A stretch of DNA of 64,000 nucleotides. Source: Psychrobacter arcticus 273-4 (GTDB lineage Bacteria > Pseudomonadota > Gammaproteobacteria > Pseudomonadales > Moraxellaceae). The notes beneath the pieces were generated by a model that saw only the letters and a program-made list of their open reading frames with translations, was not told where the DNA came from and did no database searches. This document shows, piece after piece, positions 3,463-32,832 of this stretch (its first letter is position 1; every line of letters begins with the position of its first letter). A program made the translations under genes and the position numbers. The DNA is taken from the NCBI RefSeq assembly GCF_000012305.1, contig NC_007204.1, forward strand, positions 1 to 64,000. The letters run 5' to 3'.

Positions 3463-4677
3463 ATGATTGAACGTCTACAAATCTCATATTTGCGTAATTT
3501 AACGCCCATCAATTTAGCACCTGCTGCTTGCAACGTCATTATCGGCGCTAATGGCAGCGGTAAAACCTCGCTACTTGAAGGTATGTTTTTGCTATCAAGA
3601 GGTAAGAGTTTCCGCCACAATCAGCCCAAACGCTATATTCAGCATCATAAAGACGCCGCAACTGTACATGCTAAACTTAGTGATGGCCGTACTTTGGCTA
3701 TCCAAAAGCAAGCAGACGCTACGACAATTTTACGTCTCAATCAAACCACGGTATACAATCAAAGTATTTTAACGGAGCAGCTTCCTACCTTGCTTATAGA
3801 TCCATCGACGATGGACATGCTAGAGCAGGGCAGTGCCAGTCGTCGGCAGTTATTAGATTGGTTGGTGTTTCACATGAAACAAGGTTTTCATCCACAGTGG
3901 ATTGCGTATCAGCGCTTATTAAAACAGCGCAATAGTTTACTCAAACAACGACGTCATTTGACTCACGTTCAGCTTGCTGAGCTTAGAGCTTGGGACAAAG
4001 GACTTGCCAGTCATGCAGCGCTGATTCATCACTACCGTGAAGCTATATTTGAAGCTTGGCAACCTTATTTTTCTGAGAGCATTGCACAGTTATTGCCTGC
4101 TTATGCTGAGCAATTAAGCTTGAGCTACAATGCGGGCTACGATACGAGTGTAGCGCTCGATATACAGCTTAATGAGCGCTTAGATCAGGATTTACAGTTG
4201 GGTTATACGCGTATTGGTAATCACCGCGCTGACATCCATGTGCATTGGCGCTCTATAAGACCAATACATAAGGCTAATGAGCACCTAAACTCACCTTTAG
4301 CAGCAGCAGCGGATTCGACTTTTAAGTTACCTATTTTGAAAGAGCAAGCGGCCAACATTTTGTCTCGTGGAGAGAAAAAATTGTTGATTACGGCATTGCG
4401 CTTATCACAATTACCACTTTTGCTTAACACTGGGAATGATCTAGAGGCATCTGTTAATGACGCTAAATTAAGCGCTACACCAGTGGTATTACTAGATGAT
4501 ATCACCGCAGAGCTGGATGATAGGGCGATAGAGATTTTATTATCAACCTTAGCACAGTTGCCATGCCAGGTATTTATGACCAGTTTGACCGATAGTATTT
4601 TACCTTTAGTGTATGAGTATTGGGAAAAACCCCAAGTGTTTCACATGAAACAAGGTAGTATTTTACCAGCTCAGTAG
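3463..4677 (+). CDS. recF: DNA replication and repair protein RecF
   Basis: SMC-like ATPase that loads RecA at gaps together with RecO and RecR. Walker A GANGSGKT is at 28-35, an ABC-type signature LSRGEKKL lies near 305, and Walker B is PVVLLDDITAELD. At 404 aa it is longer than E. coli RecF (357 aa), with an extra segment just before the signature. Unusually, the coding sequence holds two copies of a parS-like 16-mer (3866-3881 and 4637-4652), both read as the peptide VFHMKQG. The gene sits 162 bp after dnaN in the usual order. Confidence 0.96.
   Translation: MIERLQISYLRNLTPINLAPAACNVIIGANGSGKTSLLEGMFLLSRGKSFRHNQPKRYIQHHKDAATVHAKLSDGRTLAIQKQADATTILRLNQTTVYNQSILTEQLPTLLIDPSTMDMLEQGSASRRQLLDWLVFHMKQGFHPQWIAYQRLLKQRNSLLKQRRHLTHVQLAELRAWDKGLASHAALIHHYREAIFEAWQPYFSESIAQLLPAYAEQLSLSYNAGYDTSVALDIQLNERLDQDLQLGYTRIGNHRADIHVHWRSIRPIHKANEHLNSPLAAAADSTFKLPILKEQAANILSRGEKKLLITALRLSQLPLLLNTGNDLEASVNDAKLSATPVVLLDDITAELDDRAIEILLSTLAQLPCQVFMTSLTDSILPLVYEYWEKPQVFHMKQGSILPAQ
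3866..3881. other. parS-like site inside recF (1)
   Basis: TGTTTCACATGAAACA, one base from the ParB-binding consensus TGTTNCACGTGAAACA. Lies within recF and encodes part of VFHMKQG. Site type inferred from the match. Confidence 0.55.
4637..4652. other. parS-like site inside recF (2)
   Basis: Second exact copy of TGTTTCACATGAAACA, near the recF 3' end, again encoding VFHMKQG. One mismatch to the parS consensus. Confidence 0.55.
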
Positions 4678-7817: not shown

Positions 7818-7856
7818 GAAAAACCACCGCATTGGTTACCAAAGCGGTGGTTTTTT
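7818..7856 (+). terminator. Rho-independent terminator of gyrB
   Basis: Stem AAACCACCGC-TTGG / CCAA-GCGGTGGTTT with a short loop, then six T. Lies just after the gyrB stop. Confidence 0.9.
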
Positions 7857-7867
7857 AATGTTAATCT

Positions 7868-7883
7868 TGTTTCACGTGAAACT
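7868..7883. other. parS site between gyrB terminator and mntP
   Basis: TGTTTCACGTGAAACT, 15 of 16 bases of the parS consensus. It directly follows the gyrB terminator. Confidence 0.75.
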
Positions 7884-9412: not shown

Positions 9413-9931
9413 TTAATCCTTCGATGAGCCTTGCTTTGTCGCCGCTTGTTCCCTTTCCCTGAGCAAGGCATCGAGCTTTTTTAGGTAGGCGTTCTCTGCA
9501 CGCAGGTATGCCAGTTCACGCTTTAATTCAGCAGGTGTTTTGTCGTCATCTGGTTTGTTTGTGATCACGGGCTTGGTCATGGCGCCTCTACCTTGTCGTT
9601 TGGGAGTGAGTCCAGACATACCATACTGTCGATACGCTTTATGCCAATGGCTGATAAGAGCGGGTGCGCTGATGTTGAACTTTAGTGCCGTCTCAGGTTG
9701 ACTTAAACCTTGCTTTAACATGGTCGTTAATACTTGGTGTTTAAAGTCAGCACTGTAGACAGCTTTACTGGTTTTAGGTCTGATCGCTTCTATACCACCG
9801 CTTTGGTATTGCTTTACCCATTTGCGTACAAATTGGGGGTTTACTGCAAACTTTTTACCTGTAGCAAGTCCGGTATGTCCTTGCTTGTAGTATGCGATGA
9901 TTTTGATCTTAAAGTCTAGATTGTAACGCAT
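9413..9931 (-). CDS. IS3-family transposase OrfA (helix-turn-helix)
   Basis: DNA-binding half of the transposase, 172 aa. Two HTH segments are visible: around 1-50 (YKQGHTGLATGKKFAVNPQFVRKWV) and around 60-110 (LSQPETALKFNISAPALISHWHKAY). A leucine-rich coiled coil ending in LRAENAYLKKLDALLRE follows. The A6G slippery heptamer lies in the LKKL codons. The SD-like GGGG before its ATG is in the 3' arm of the end hairpin. Confidence 0.92.
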   Translation of the reverse strand: MRYNLDFKIKIIAYYKQGHTGLATGKKFAVNPQFVRKWVKQYQSGGIEAIRPKTSKAVYSADFKHQVLTTMLKQGLSQPETALKFNISAPALISHWHKAYRQYGMSGLTPKRQGRGAMTKPVITNKPDDDKTPAELKRELAYLRAENAYLKKLDALLREREQAATKQGSSKD

Positions 9932-9979: not shown

Positions 9980-9998
9980 CCAGAGCGGTGTTTTTTAT
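9980..9998 (+). terminator. Right half of mntP terminator, split by IS
   Basis: CCAGAGCGGTGTTTTTT, the 3' arm and T-run of the terminator interrupted by the IS. On its own it cannot form the original stem. Confidence 0.8.
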
Positions 9999-10014
9999 TG
10001 TTTCACGTGAAACT
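9999..10014. other. parS site downstream of mntP
   Basis: TGTTTCACGTGAAACT, identical to the site at 7868 and 15/16 to the consensus. Directly abuts the terminator half and lies 5 bp from a 138-bp repeat copy. Confidence 0.75.
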
Positions 10015-30059: not shown

Positions 30060-30542
30060 AAAATCAATACCTTGATGCAAGCGTAATGGCGATGAGTGTA
30101 AATAGGGGTCTAAATAGTAATAGTTGAGTAGGGTCAGATCAAAATAGAAGAGCGTCACCTTGAGTGGCAGTTATTTTTAAACGGACTTGACTACAGCTAT
30201 CAATATGGCGATAAATACTAGCATGGCTGAGCATTATCAAGGTATAAAAACCTTTGTTCATTCCTTAATCAACTCTTTTTAATATTCACCAAAGAGTCTA
30301 ATTAACACTTTGTACCTCCGCCAACTTGATAAATGGCGCTGCCATCTCCATAAATAGCGCAAACTTTTAATAATTGATTTGACTAAGCAGCACCCCACTG
30401 TATTCGCTGGTAAGATTTATATGATTATCATCACTGTTCTCTATATTCCGCTATGTTTCATGTGAAACTTTTAGTGCGATGATGAGCATTATTGAACGAT
30501 AAATTAACCAAGCGGTGGACTGTGAAGACGATAGGAGAGCCT
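30060..30542. other. Intergenic region before dnaJ
   Basis: About 480 bp between the divergent DUF2939 gene and dnaJ. It contains one parS-like site (30454-30469). I see no other gene, and dnaK or grpE are not here. Confidence 0.5.
30454..30469. other. parS-like site before dnaJ
   Basis: TGTTTCATGTGAAACT, two mismatches to the consensus. Lies 74 bp upstream of the dnaJ start. Confidence 0.5.
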
Positions 30543-31667
30543 ATGAGTAAGCGCGATTTTTATGAAATACTAGGTGTCAGTAAGACCGCTGATAACAAAG
30601 AGGTCAAGCGAGCCTACCGCAAGCTTGCCATGAAATACCATCCAGACCGTAACTCTGACGACCCTGATGCTGAAGACAAATTTAAAGAAGCATCGATGGC
30701 TTATGAAGTATTGAGTAGCGAAGAAAAACGCTCAGCGTATGACCGTATGGGTCATGCTGCTTTTGAAAACGGTATGGGCGGTGGTGGTGGTGGTGGAAAC
30801 TTCCAAGATATCTTCGGCGATATTTTTGGTAACTTTGGCGATATTTTTGGTCAATCACGTGGCGGCGGCGGTGGACGTTCGCGTCGCGGCTCAGACCTGC
30901 GTTATGTGATTGAGCTGACTTTAGAGGAAGCGGTACGCGGCTGCAAAAAAGAAATCAGCTTTACTGCACCTGCGCCTTGCGATACCTGTGATGGTAAAGG
31001 CGCAAAAAATGCCTCTGATATCGTGACTTGTCAAACCTGTCATGGTCAAGGTCAAGTCCGTATGCAGCAAGGTTTCTTTGCTGTTCAACAAGCCTGCCCA
31101 CATTGTGGCGGTACTGGCAAACAAATCAAAAATCCTTGTTCTGACTGTCATGGTAATGGCGTCAAGGATAAGTCGCGCACGCTAGAAGTCTCTATCCCAG
31201 CAGGCGTTGATGATGGCGATCGCGTACGTTTGTCAGGCGAAGGCGAAGCGGGCGGCGCTGGCGTACAAAACGGCGATTTATACGTCGAAGTACGTGTTAA
31301 ACCGCACAATGTCTTTACACGCCAAGGTGCCGATCTGTATATGGATGTACCTATTAGTATTACTGATGCAGCTTTGGGTAAAGAAGTTGAAATCCCAACC
31401 TTAGACGGCAAAGTCAAAATCAAAGTCGCCGAAGGGACACAAAGTGGTAAGTTGCTGCGAGTACGTGGTAGAGGTGTGACGCCAGTACGTACTACGATGA
31501 AAGGTGATTTGATTTGCCGTGTGGTCATCGAAACGCCAGTGAATTTAACCCGTGAGCAAAAAGATCTGTTACGTCAGTTCCAAGATACGCTTGATGGTGA
31601 TAGCAAGCATCAGCAGTCACCACATAAAAAATCTTTCTTTAAAAAGATTGGTGATTTGTTCGACTAA
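30543..31667 (+). CDS. dnaJ: Chaperone DnaJ
   Basis: Hsp40 co-chaperone that stimulates DnaK ATPase. J-domain 1-70 with KYHPDRN, Gly/Phe-rich linker ([21 protein letters not shown]), then four zinc repeats [24 protein letters not shown] and CSDCHGNG, and the C-terminal substrate domain. Start at ATG 30543 with AGGAG 8 nt upstream (374 aa). A longer frame from 30492 begins at a non-ATG codon. Flanked by a parS-like site on each side. Confidence 0.97.
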
Positions 31668-31697
31668 CAATATCCTTTACTTAAATGAATAACTCAT

Positions 31698-31735
31698 AAA
31701 AGCCTGATAGTTTCACGTGAAACTATCAGGCTTTT
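31698..31735. terminator. 38-bp perfect palindrome: dnaJ terminator with parS at its centre
   Basis: AAAAGCCTGATAGTTTCAC (31698-31716) is the exact reverse complement of 31717-31735, with no unpaired centre, and a T-run follows. The middle 16 bp (AGTTTCACGTGAAACT, 31709-31724) fit the parS consensus at 14/16 and are fully symmetric. Terminator function and ParB binding are both inferred. Confidence 0.75.
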
Positions 31736-31738
31736 TGC

Positions 31739-31884
31739 TATAGTTGATTCCAAATAAAGTAGATACATCATGTTTTGACGCGGCACTGGTATAAATTTTT
31801 CTGGCGTGCTGTGCCTGCGCAGACAGAGGCTGCAAAAAATTCATTCCAGTCCCGCTGTATCGTTTTTATACTGGGCTTACTATA
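31739..31884 (+). repeat. 146-bp palindromic repeat, family II, copy 1
   Basis: TATAGTTGATTCCAAATAAA ... TTACTATA. Shares the core GCTGTGCC(T)GCGCAGACAG / AGGCTGCAAAAAATT with family I, but the arms differ. Lies 3 bp from the dnaJ terminator palindrome. Confidence 0.88.
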
Positions 31885-31995: not shown

Positions 31996-32832
31996 ATGAG
32001 TCAGCAAGAGAACAAAAAAATGATTAACGTCGGCGTTATCGGTGCAGGCGGGCGTATGGGGCGTATGCTTATCGAAGCGATACAAGACAATCCACAAACG
32101 GCACTCAATGCAGCGATTGAGCGTCAAGGCTCAAGTCTTGTCGGAGCAGATGCAGGAGAAGTTGCTGCTATTGGGCGCTTAGAGGTACAGATTGTTGATG
32201 ACCTAAAAGCAGTTATTAATGATATTGATGTATTGATTGATTTTAGCTTACCTGCTGCTACTGAACAAAACATGCAAGTCTGTGCTAAGCACAACGTCGC
32301 TATGGTCATCGGTACGACAGGATTTAATGAGCAGCAAGAGCAGGTGCTGGCAAAAGCGAGTGAGCAAGTGGCTATCGTTTACGCGGGCAATTATTCAACA
32401 GGCGTTAATCTGTCATTAAAATTGCTAGGTATGGCTGCTAAAGCGTTTGGTACGGACGCCGATGTCGAAATCATCGAAGCACATCATAAGCATAAAATCG
32501 ATGCTCCGTCAGGTACTGCCTATATGATGGCAGAAGCTGTCGCAGAAGCCCGTGGGCAGAATCTAAAAGAGGTTGTTGTTTATGGCCGCGAAGGGCAAAC
32601 CGGCGCGCGCGAAGCAGGCACTATTGGTATTCATGCGATACGCGGCGGTGAAATTATTGGCGATCATACTGTGATGTTTATAGCTGATGGCGAAGTCGTT
32701 GAGATTACCCATCGCGCGCGGGCAAGAATGACCTTTGCTGCTGGTGCGGTGCGTGCTGCTACGTGGATCGTTCAGCAGCCCGTTGGTCAATATAATATGC
32801 AGGATGTCTTAGGTTTAAATGACTATATCTGA
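31996..32832 (+). CDS. dapB: 4-hydroxy-tetrahydrodipicolinate reductase
   Basis: Second step of the DAP/lysine branch. Rossmann NAD(P)H motif VIGAGGRMGRM, substrate loop EAHHKHKIDAPSGTA, and C-terminal HRARARMTFAAGAVRAATWI. 278 aa against 273 in E. coli. AGGA about 7 nt before the ATG. Ends at a bidirectional terminator shared with speC. Confidence 0.96.
   Translation: MSQQENKKMINVGVIGAGGRMGRMLIEAIQDNPQTALNAAIERQGSSLVGADAGEVAAIGRLEVQIVDDLKAVINDIDVLIDFSLPAATEQNMQVCAKHNVAMVIGTTGFNEQQEQVLAKASEQVAIVYAGNYSTGVNLSLKLLGMAAKAFGTDADVEIIEAHHKHKIDAPSGTAYMMAEAVAEARGQNLKEVVVYGREGQTGAREAGTIGIHAIRGGEIIGDHTVMFIADGEVVEITHRARARMTFAAGAVRAATWIVQQPVGQYNMQDVLGLNDYI

Follow-up and report, generated by a model that had tools for sequence, protein, structure and literature searches.

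The 3′ end of dnaJ in Psychrobacter arcticus 273-4 raises the question of whether one short sequence can both end transcription and act as a parS site for loading of ParB. The window analysed here is the first 64,000 nucleotides of the genome, which is a single contig of 2,650,701 bases. The window begins at the replication origin, and dnaA is at position 520.

The palindrome following dnaJ

The initial annotation described a 38-bp perfect palindrome with a parS-like centre and a T-run at its end, and this description is correct. The sequence AAAAGCCTGATAGTTTCACGTGAAACTATCAGGCTTTT at 31698–31735 is perfectly palindromic (19 + 19), and is the longest palindrome in the window, the runner-up being 10 + 10. 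It begins 30 nt past the dnaJ stop codon and ends in TTTTT (Table 1). From base composition, the expected number of such palindromes in the window is about 4 × 10−7, and the expectation for any of eight parS-like sites gaining 12 more pairs is about 7 × 10−7. The 16-mer at the centre has two outer mismatches to the parS consensus TGTTTCACGTGAAACA, but matches it exactly over the 14-bp core. This site lacks the T/A that flanks the core in the 16-mer consensus, which counts against a dual use.

Table 1 Features of the dnaJ 3′ region. Positions are those of the window.
Feature	Position	Strand	Basis
38-bp perfect palindrome, predicted hairpin of the dnaJ terminator	31698–31735	+	Palindrome search, RNA fold, arms covarying across 92 aligned loci
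5′ stem arm, AAAAGCCTGATA	31698–31709	+	Pairs with 31724–31735; compensatory changes in relatives
Predicted parS core, GTTTCACGTGAAAC, 14 bp, centre of the palindrome	31710–31723		Core match; 12 non-central positions nearly unchanged
3′ stem arm as far as the T-tract, TATCAGGC	31724–31731	+	Alignment and change counts on the dapB tree
T-tract of the predicted terminator, TTTTT	31732–31736	+	Sequence; 0–1 changes per site over 89 aligned loci
dnaJ, gene ended by the predicted terminator	30543–31667	+	Family match from residue 18 (= 30543); listed ORF start 30492
dapB, next gene downstream, co-directional with dnaJ	31996–32832	+	ORF list and family match
Second parS-like site, TGTTTCATGTGAAACT, about 74 nt upstream of dnaJ	30454–30469		Outside any terminator

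The palindrome was also said to have no loop bases. This holds for the DNA but not for the RNA, which is predicted to fold into a 17-bp stem with an ACGU tetraloop. The fold energy of 31680–31750 is −27.1 kcal/mol (z = −7.1), and none of 200 shuffled sequences was equally stable. The element thus has a stable stem-loop, a T-tract adjoining the stem, and covariation within the stem (described below). In its stem-loop, its T-tract and its place just 3′ of a coding sequence it resembles ordinary Rho-independent terminators, from which it differs in that the sequence of the apical stem, and of most of the loop, is fixed rather than free to vary. A generic terminator scan of the window did not list the dnaJ element, and we think that this is because the stem absorbs the T-run.

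parS-like sites cluster at the origin

The whole genome was searched for parS-like sequences with up to two mismatches, using the reversed pattern as a control. All 13 sites found lie between −10 and +94 kb from the origin, and the reversed pattern gave no matches anywhere in the genome. Because the matches are clustered at the origin, they are very unlikely to have arisen by chance, and since all 13 are origin-proximal, the site within the predicted dnaJ terminator would appear to belong genuinely to the parS cluster. The sole ParB-family match in the genome is TIGR00180, at 1589555–1590103 (163.7 bits, with a cutoff of 58.45). It lies well away from the parS cluster, about 1.06 Mb from the origin along the shorter arc. 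The dnaJ site combines a core match, origin clustering, a genome that encodes ParB, and a core more conserved than its surroundings. The parS sites of chromosomal ParABS systems (TGTTTCACGTGAAACA and variants) are similar in core sequence, in occurring as several origin-proximal copies, and in having a ParB gene in the genome; the difference is that here parS forms the apex of a predicted intrinsic terminator.

None of the 12 other parS-like sites of the genome lies within a comparable terminator hairpin, which counts against a dual use, and a fusion at the window's other sites was rejected on this basis. Two of these, at 7868 and 9999, had been annotated as touching terminators. The first does have a separate gyrB terminator hairpin nearby, but lies 12 nt beyond it and is not part of it; the second follows a T-run, but there is no convincing hairpin. 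A minus-strand match to the pattern at 4625–4651 has no strong hairpin and was set aside as a chance match.

Some other features of these sites can be recorded. The parS sites within 7820–7883 and 9980–10014 have TGTTTCACGTGAAACT in common, and the flank of the 9999 site, accagagcggtgtttttt, is similar to the right arm of the gyrB terminator preceding 7868. An IS-like transposase fragment lies close to the 9999 site, at 9413–9931. The likeness of the two flanks and the nearby fragment hint at a rearrangement. dnaJ itself has a parS-like site on either side, the pair being about 1.3 kb apart, and the same arrangement is found in genomes G001, G005, G010 and G016. Finally, the sequence starts, adjoining the origin, with an inverted repeat whose 17-bp arms match perfectly and are 4 nt apart (TTACAGAGGATATTTAA-CTTC-TTAAATATCCTCTGTAA, positions 1–38).

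Arms that covary around an almost invariant core

The dnaJ 3′ regions of 102 congeneric genomes were compared with that of P. arcticus, giving 103 in all. In 89 of the 103, a hairpin with a T-tract after it contains an intact GTTTCAYRTGAAAC core. In six the hairpin is kept and the core is altered (L032, L038, L042, L057, L091 and L114). The remaining eight have no parS after dnaJ, and most of these have an ordinary terminator, although in one (L104) no terminator is visible there. The altered-core and parS-less congeners imply that the terminator and parS functions are separable, and that their fusion can be lost and is not essential. The suggestion that parS was lost through dnaJ leaving the origin region is unsupported: in genomes with both genes on one contig, dnaJ is about 23–93 kb from dnaA, with or without parS.

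The arms were aligned for 92 loci (75 distinct), and changes at 89 loci were counted by parsimony on a tree of dapB. There are 43 different right-arm 8-mers among the aligned loci, and nonetheless the arms remain paired: arm pairs 1–7 are paired in 96.8% of cases, compared to 70.8% when the arms are shuffled (shuffle maximum 75.6%), and no fewer than 79 two-sided compensatory changes are needed on the tree. The core behaves quite differently. Its 12 non-central positions have 4 changes summed, as against 15.9 per site for dapB third codon positions. The central dinucleotide, which sits in the RNA loop, has 15 and 14 changes, and its variants CA and TG are also found at the genome's other parS-like sites. 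The only symmetric change in the core is in L091, where it gives GTTCCACGTGGAAC, which is also the core found in the parS2 type of P. aeruginosa (PMC4368675). Judged from the alignment, this pattern is the signature of two constraints, namely RNA pairing in the arms and sequence recognition in the core.

It is of interest to compare this pattern with what would be expected if only one of the two functions were present. An ordinary terminator with a coincidental parS-like centre would account for the palindrome, since palindromicity is normal for terminators, and also for congeners such as L057 and L114, whose hairpin surrounds a changed core, and for those with an unrelated terminator. However, it is hard to see why the arms should turn over while the core is nearly invariant across the 92 aligned loci, and the core pairs do not covary as the arm pairs do, which disfavours termination as the only function. 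The centre is moreover an exact 14-mer, one of 13 sites that are all at the origin, and the same design is found at unrelated loci across phyla (see below). We regard coincidence as extremely unlikely.

The converse proposal is that the element is solely a parS, with the arms acting as an extended ParB-binding or cruciform element and with no role in termination. The perfection of the palindrome is consistent with this, as in this genome an A4 and a T4 on opposite sides make it symmetric. However, the upstream A-run is missing in many relatives. The T-tract is conserved, and is on the coding-strand side. The arm sequence varies freely and only the pairing is kept, so the arms are not bound sequence-specifically. 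ParB alone would need neither the arm pairing nor the T-tract, yet both persist, and elsewhere the element sits after gene ends in the correct orientation. A site with no part in termination is therefore very unlikely.

Recurrence in Moraxellaceae and other bacteria

Of 349 Moraxellaceae genomes, 88 have a parS with GGNTTTTT after it, as compared to two for the mirror control CCNAAAAA. Nine Acinetobacter genomes have parS hairpins after an alpha/beta-hydrolase gene, with arms of two different sequences (GCCGAT and CCCAGT), located 20–40 kb from dnaA in the eight genomes measured. A Moraxella-like genome has a parS hairpin after an EamA-type gene, and Psychrobacter G010 has another after a threonine synthase gene. 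An even sample of 369 other Gammaproteobacteria contained no genome with the pattern, and the fusion was accordingly rejected as a general gammaproteobacterial trait.

A scan of GTDB contigs, covering exact-core sites near GGNTTTTT, gave at least 119 stretches. Among the 109 matches listed from outside the Moraxellaceae, 37 have four or more further Watson–Crick pairs beyond the extended 18-mer, whereas permutation of the flanks of the same 109 gave a mean of 1.2 and a maximum of 6. A co-directional ORF ends within 150 nt before the element in 28 of the 34 testable hairpin cases listed, compared to 31 of 63 non-hairpin cases. Hairpin examples among the matches listed include Rothia (AACCCTCGGTGAT-parS-ATCACCGAGGGTTTTT), Domibacillus, Sinobaca and Legionellaceae, with further examples in Vreelandella (after gyrB), Dadabacteria, Spirochaetaceae, Desulfobacteraceae and many Clostridia. 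A scan of viral contigs gave 15 stretches.

Among the matches listed, the element is directly 3′ of parB in six (L204, L197, L191, L168, L279 and L220), in groups that include Rothia, Phascolarctobacterium, a Clostridia MAG and Spirochaetaceae. In many Clostridia it is 0.8–1.2 kb upstream of parB, a spacing that leaves room for a presumed parA gene. In L263, L173, L185, L281, L250, L264, L268 and others, all Clostridia, the putative parS-terminator separates the parAB operon from the gene before it, which in several cases is gidB. On the evidence of these sequences, parS-terminator fusions appear to have arisen independently and repeatedly at unrelated loci in other bacterial groups, among them actinobacteria, firmicutes and spirochaetes.

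A probable dual-use site

The dnaJ element is very probably a dual-use site, a predicted intrinsic terminator in RNA and a predicted parS in DNA. That one sequence could have both roles was proposed in the initial annotation, and the proposal now has strong comparative support, because the arms covary, the core is invariant, the T-tract is conserved, the element follows dnaJ, and the parS sites cluster at the origin. Termination and ParB binding at the element are both predicted from sequence.

We hypothesise that in the transcript, the stem, capped by the parS half-sites and followed by a U-tract, would form the intrinsic terminator of dnaJ, while in the duplex the central 14 bp would be one of the 13 origin-proximal parS sites where ParB loads as a CTP-dependent clamp. 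The two functions can share the same bases because termination takes place at the level of the transcript, whereas ParB is loaded on duplex DNA, and also because any perfect palindrome of 14 bp can already form the apex of a hairpin. Selection would then hold the core for ParB, the arms for pairing alone, and the T-run for termination. A parS near a gene end could become a terminator by the addition of G+C-rich complementary arms and a T-run, or the reverse route may have been taken. As to why this would be favoured, our guess is that a palindrome is tolerated in the non-coding stretch where a transcription unit ends, and that stopping transcription there may limit read-through over the downstream DNA where ParB clamps slide.

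A further proposal is that the two functions are not only superimposed but coupled, with ParB blocking or assisting RNA polymerase, or transcription evicting ParB, so that dnaJ (and elsewhere parAB) would be regulated by ParB occupancy. The parS-like sites on both sides of dnaJ are in keeping with this, as are the fusions listed directly after parB and 0.8–1.2 kb upstream of it, but position by itself does not demonstrate coupling. Precedents point both ways: in P. aeruginosa, ParB at the intergenic parS3 and parS4 represses the adjacent genes (PMC7022226), whereas genes adjoining parS are unchanged after loss of Spo0J in B. subtilis (reviewed in PMC7022226). Overall we consider coupling unlikely.

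The geometry also bears on how ParB could act. The front edge of RNA polymerase is about 15–18 bp ahead of the active site. Polymerase must pass the core before the hairpin can form, and a bound ParB would thus be expected to halt it upstream, before the core is transcribed; a roadblock could therefore replace intrinsic termination but not assist it. The roadblock suggested in the initial annotation is unsupported, and roadblock-assisted termination was rejected as the main reading on these geometrical grounds.

It is somewhat unlikely, though worth stating, that the fusions make up a recurrent and selected class across phyla in which termination and ParB loading are coupled. If so, the terminator might for example keep polymerase off ParB-loaded DNA, and at positions after parB or before parA, ParB could adjust transcription around its own operon.

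Comparison with known systems and significance

No description of parS within terminators was found in the literature searched, the coverage of which was incomplete. The nearest analogue found there would seem to be the DUS-containing terminators of Neisseria, as described in PMC2397512 (with Ambur 2007 and Kingsford 2007 cited there). In both, a sequence recognised for some other purpose also serves as a Rho-independent terminator. DUS terminators consist of two closely spaced inverted copies of the motif, whereas at dnaJ a single palindromic parS would form the apex and the arms are outside the parS motif. DUS is highly abundant across the genome, whereas the parS-like copies here are few (13) and all near the origin.

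Scans for parS motifs and scans for terminators each detect half of such an element, and the terminator scan used here missed the one at dnaJ. The element would place a bacterial centromere site and a predicted transcription terminator on the same bases, an arrangement kept in most of the genus and repeated elsewhere. It may thus offer a natural system for the interplay of ParB loading and transcription, in which relatives that have a hairpin with an altered core, and those with an ordinary dnaJ terminator, provide the contrasts.
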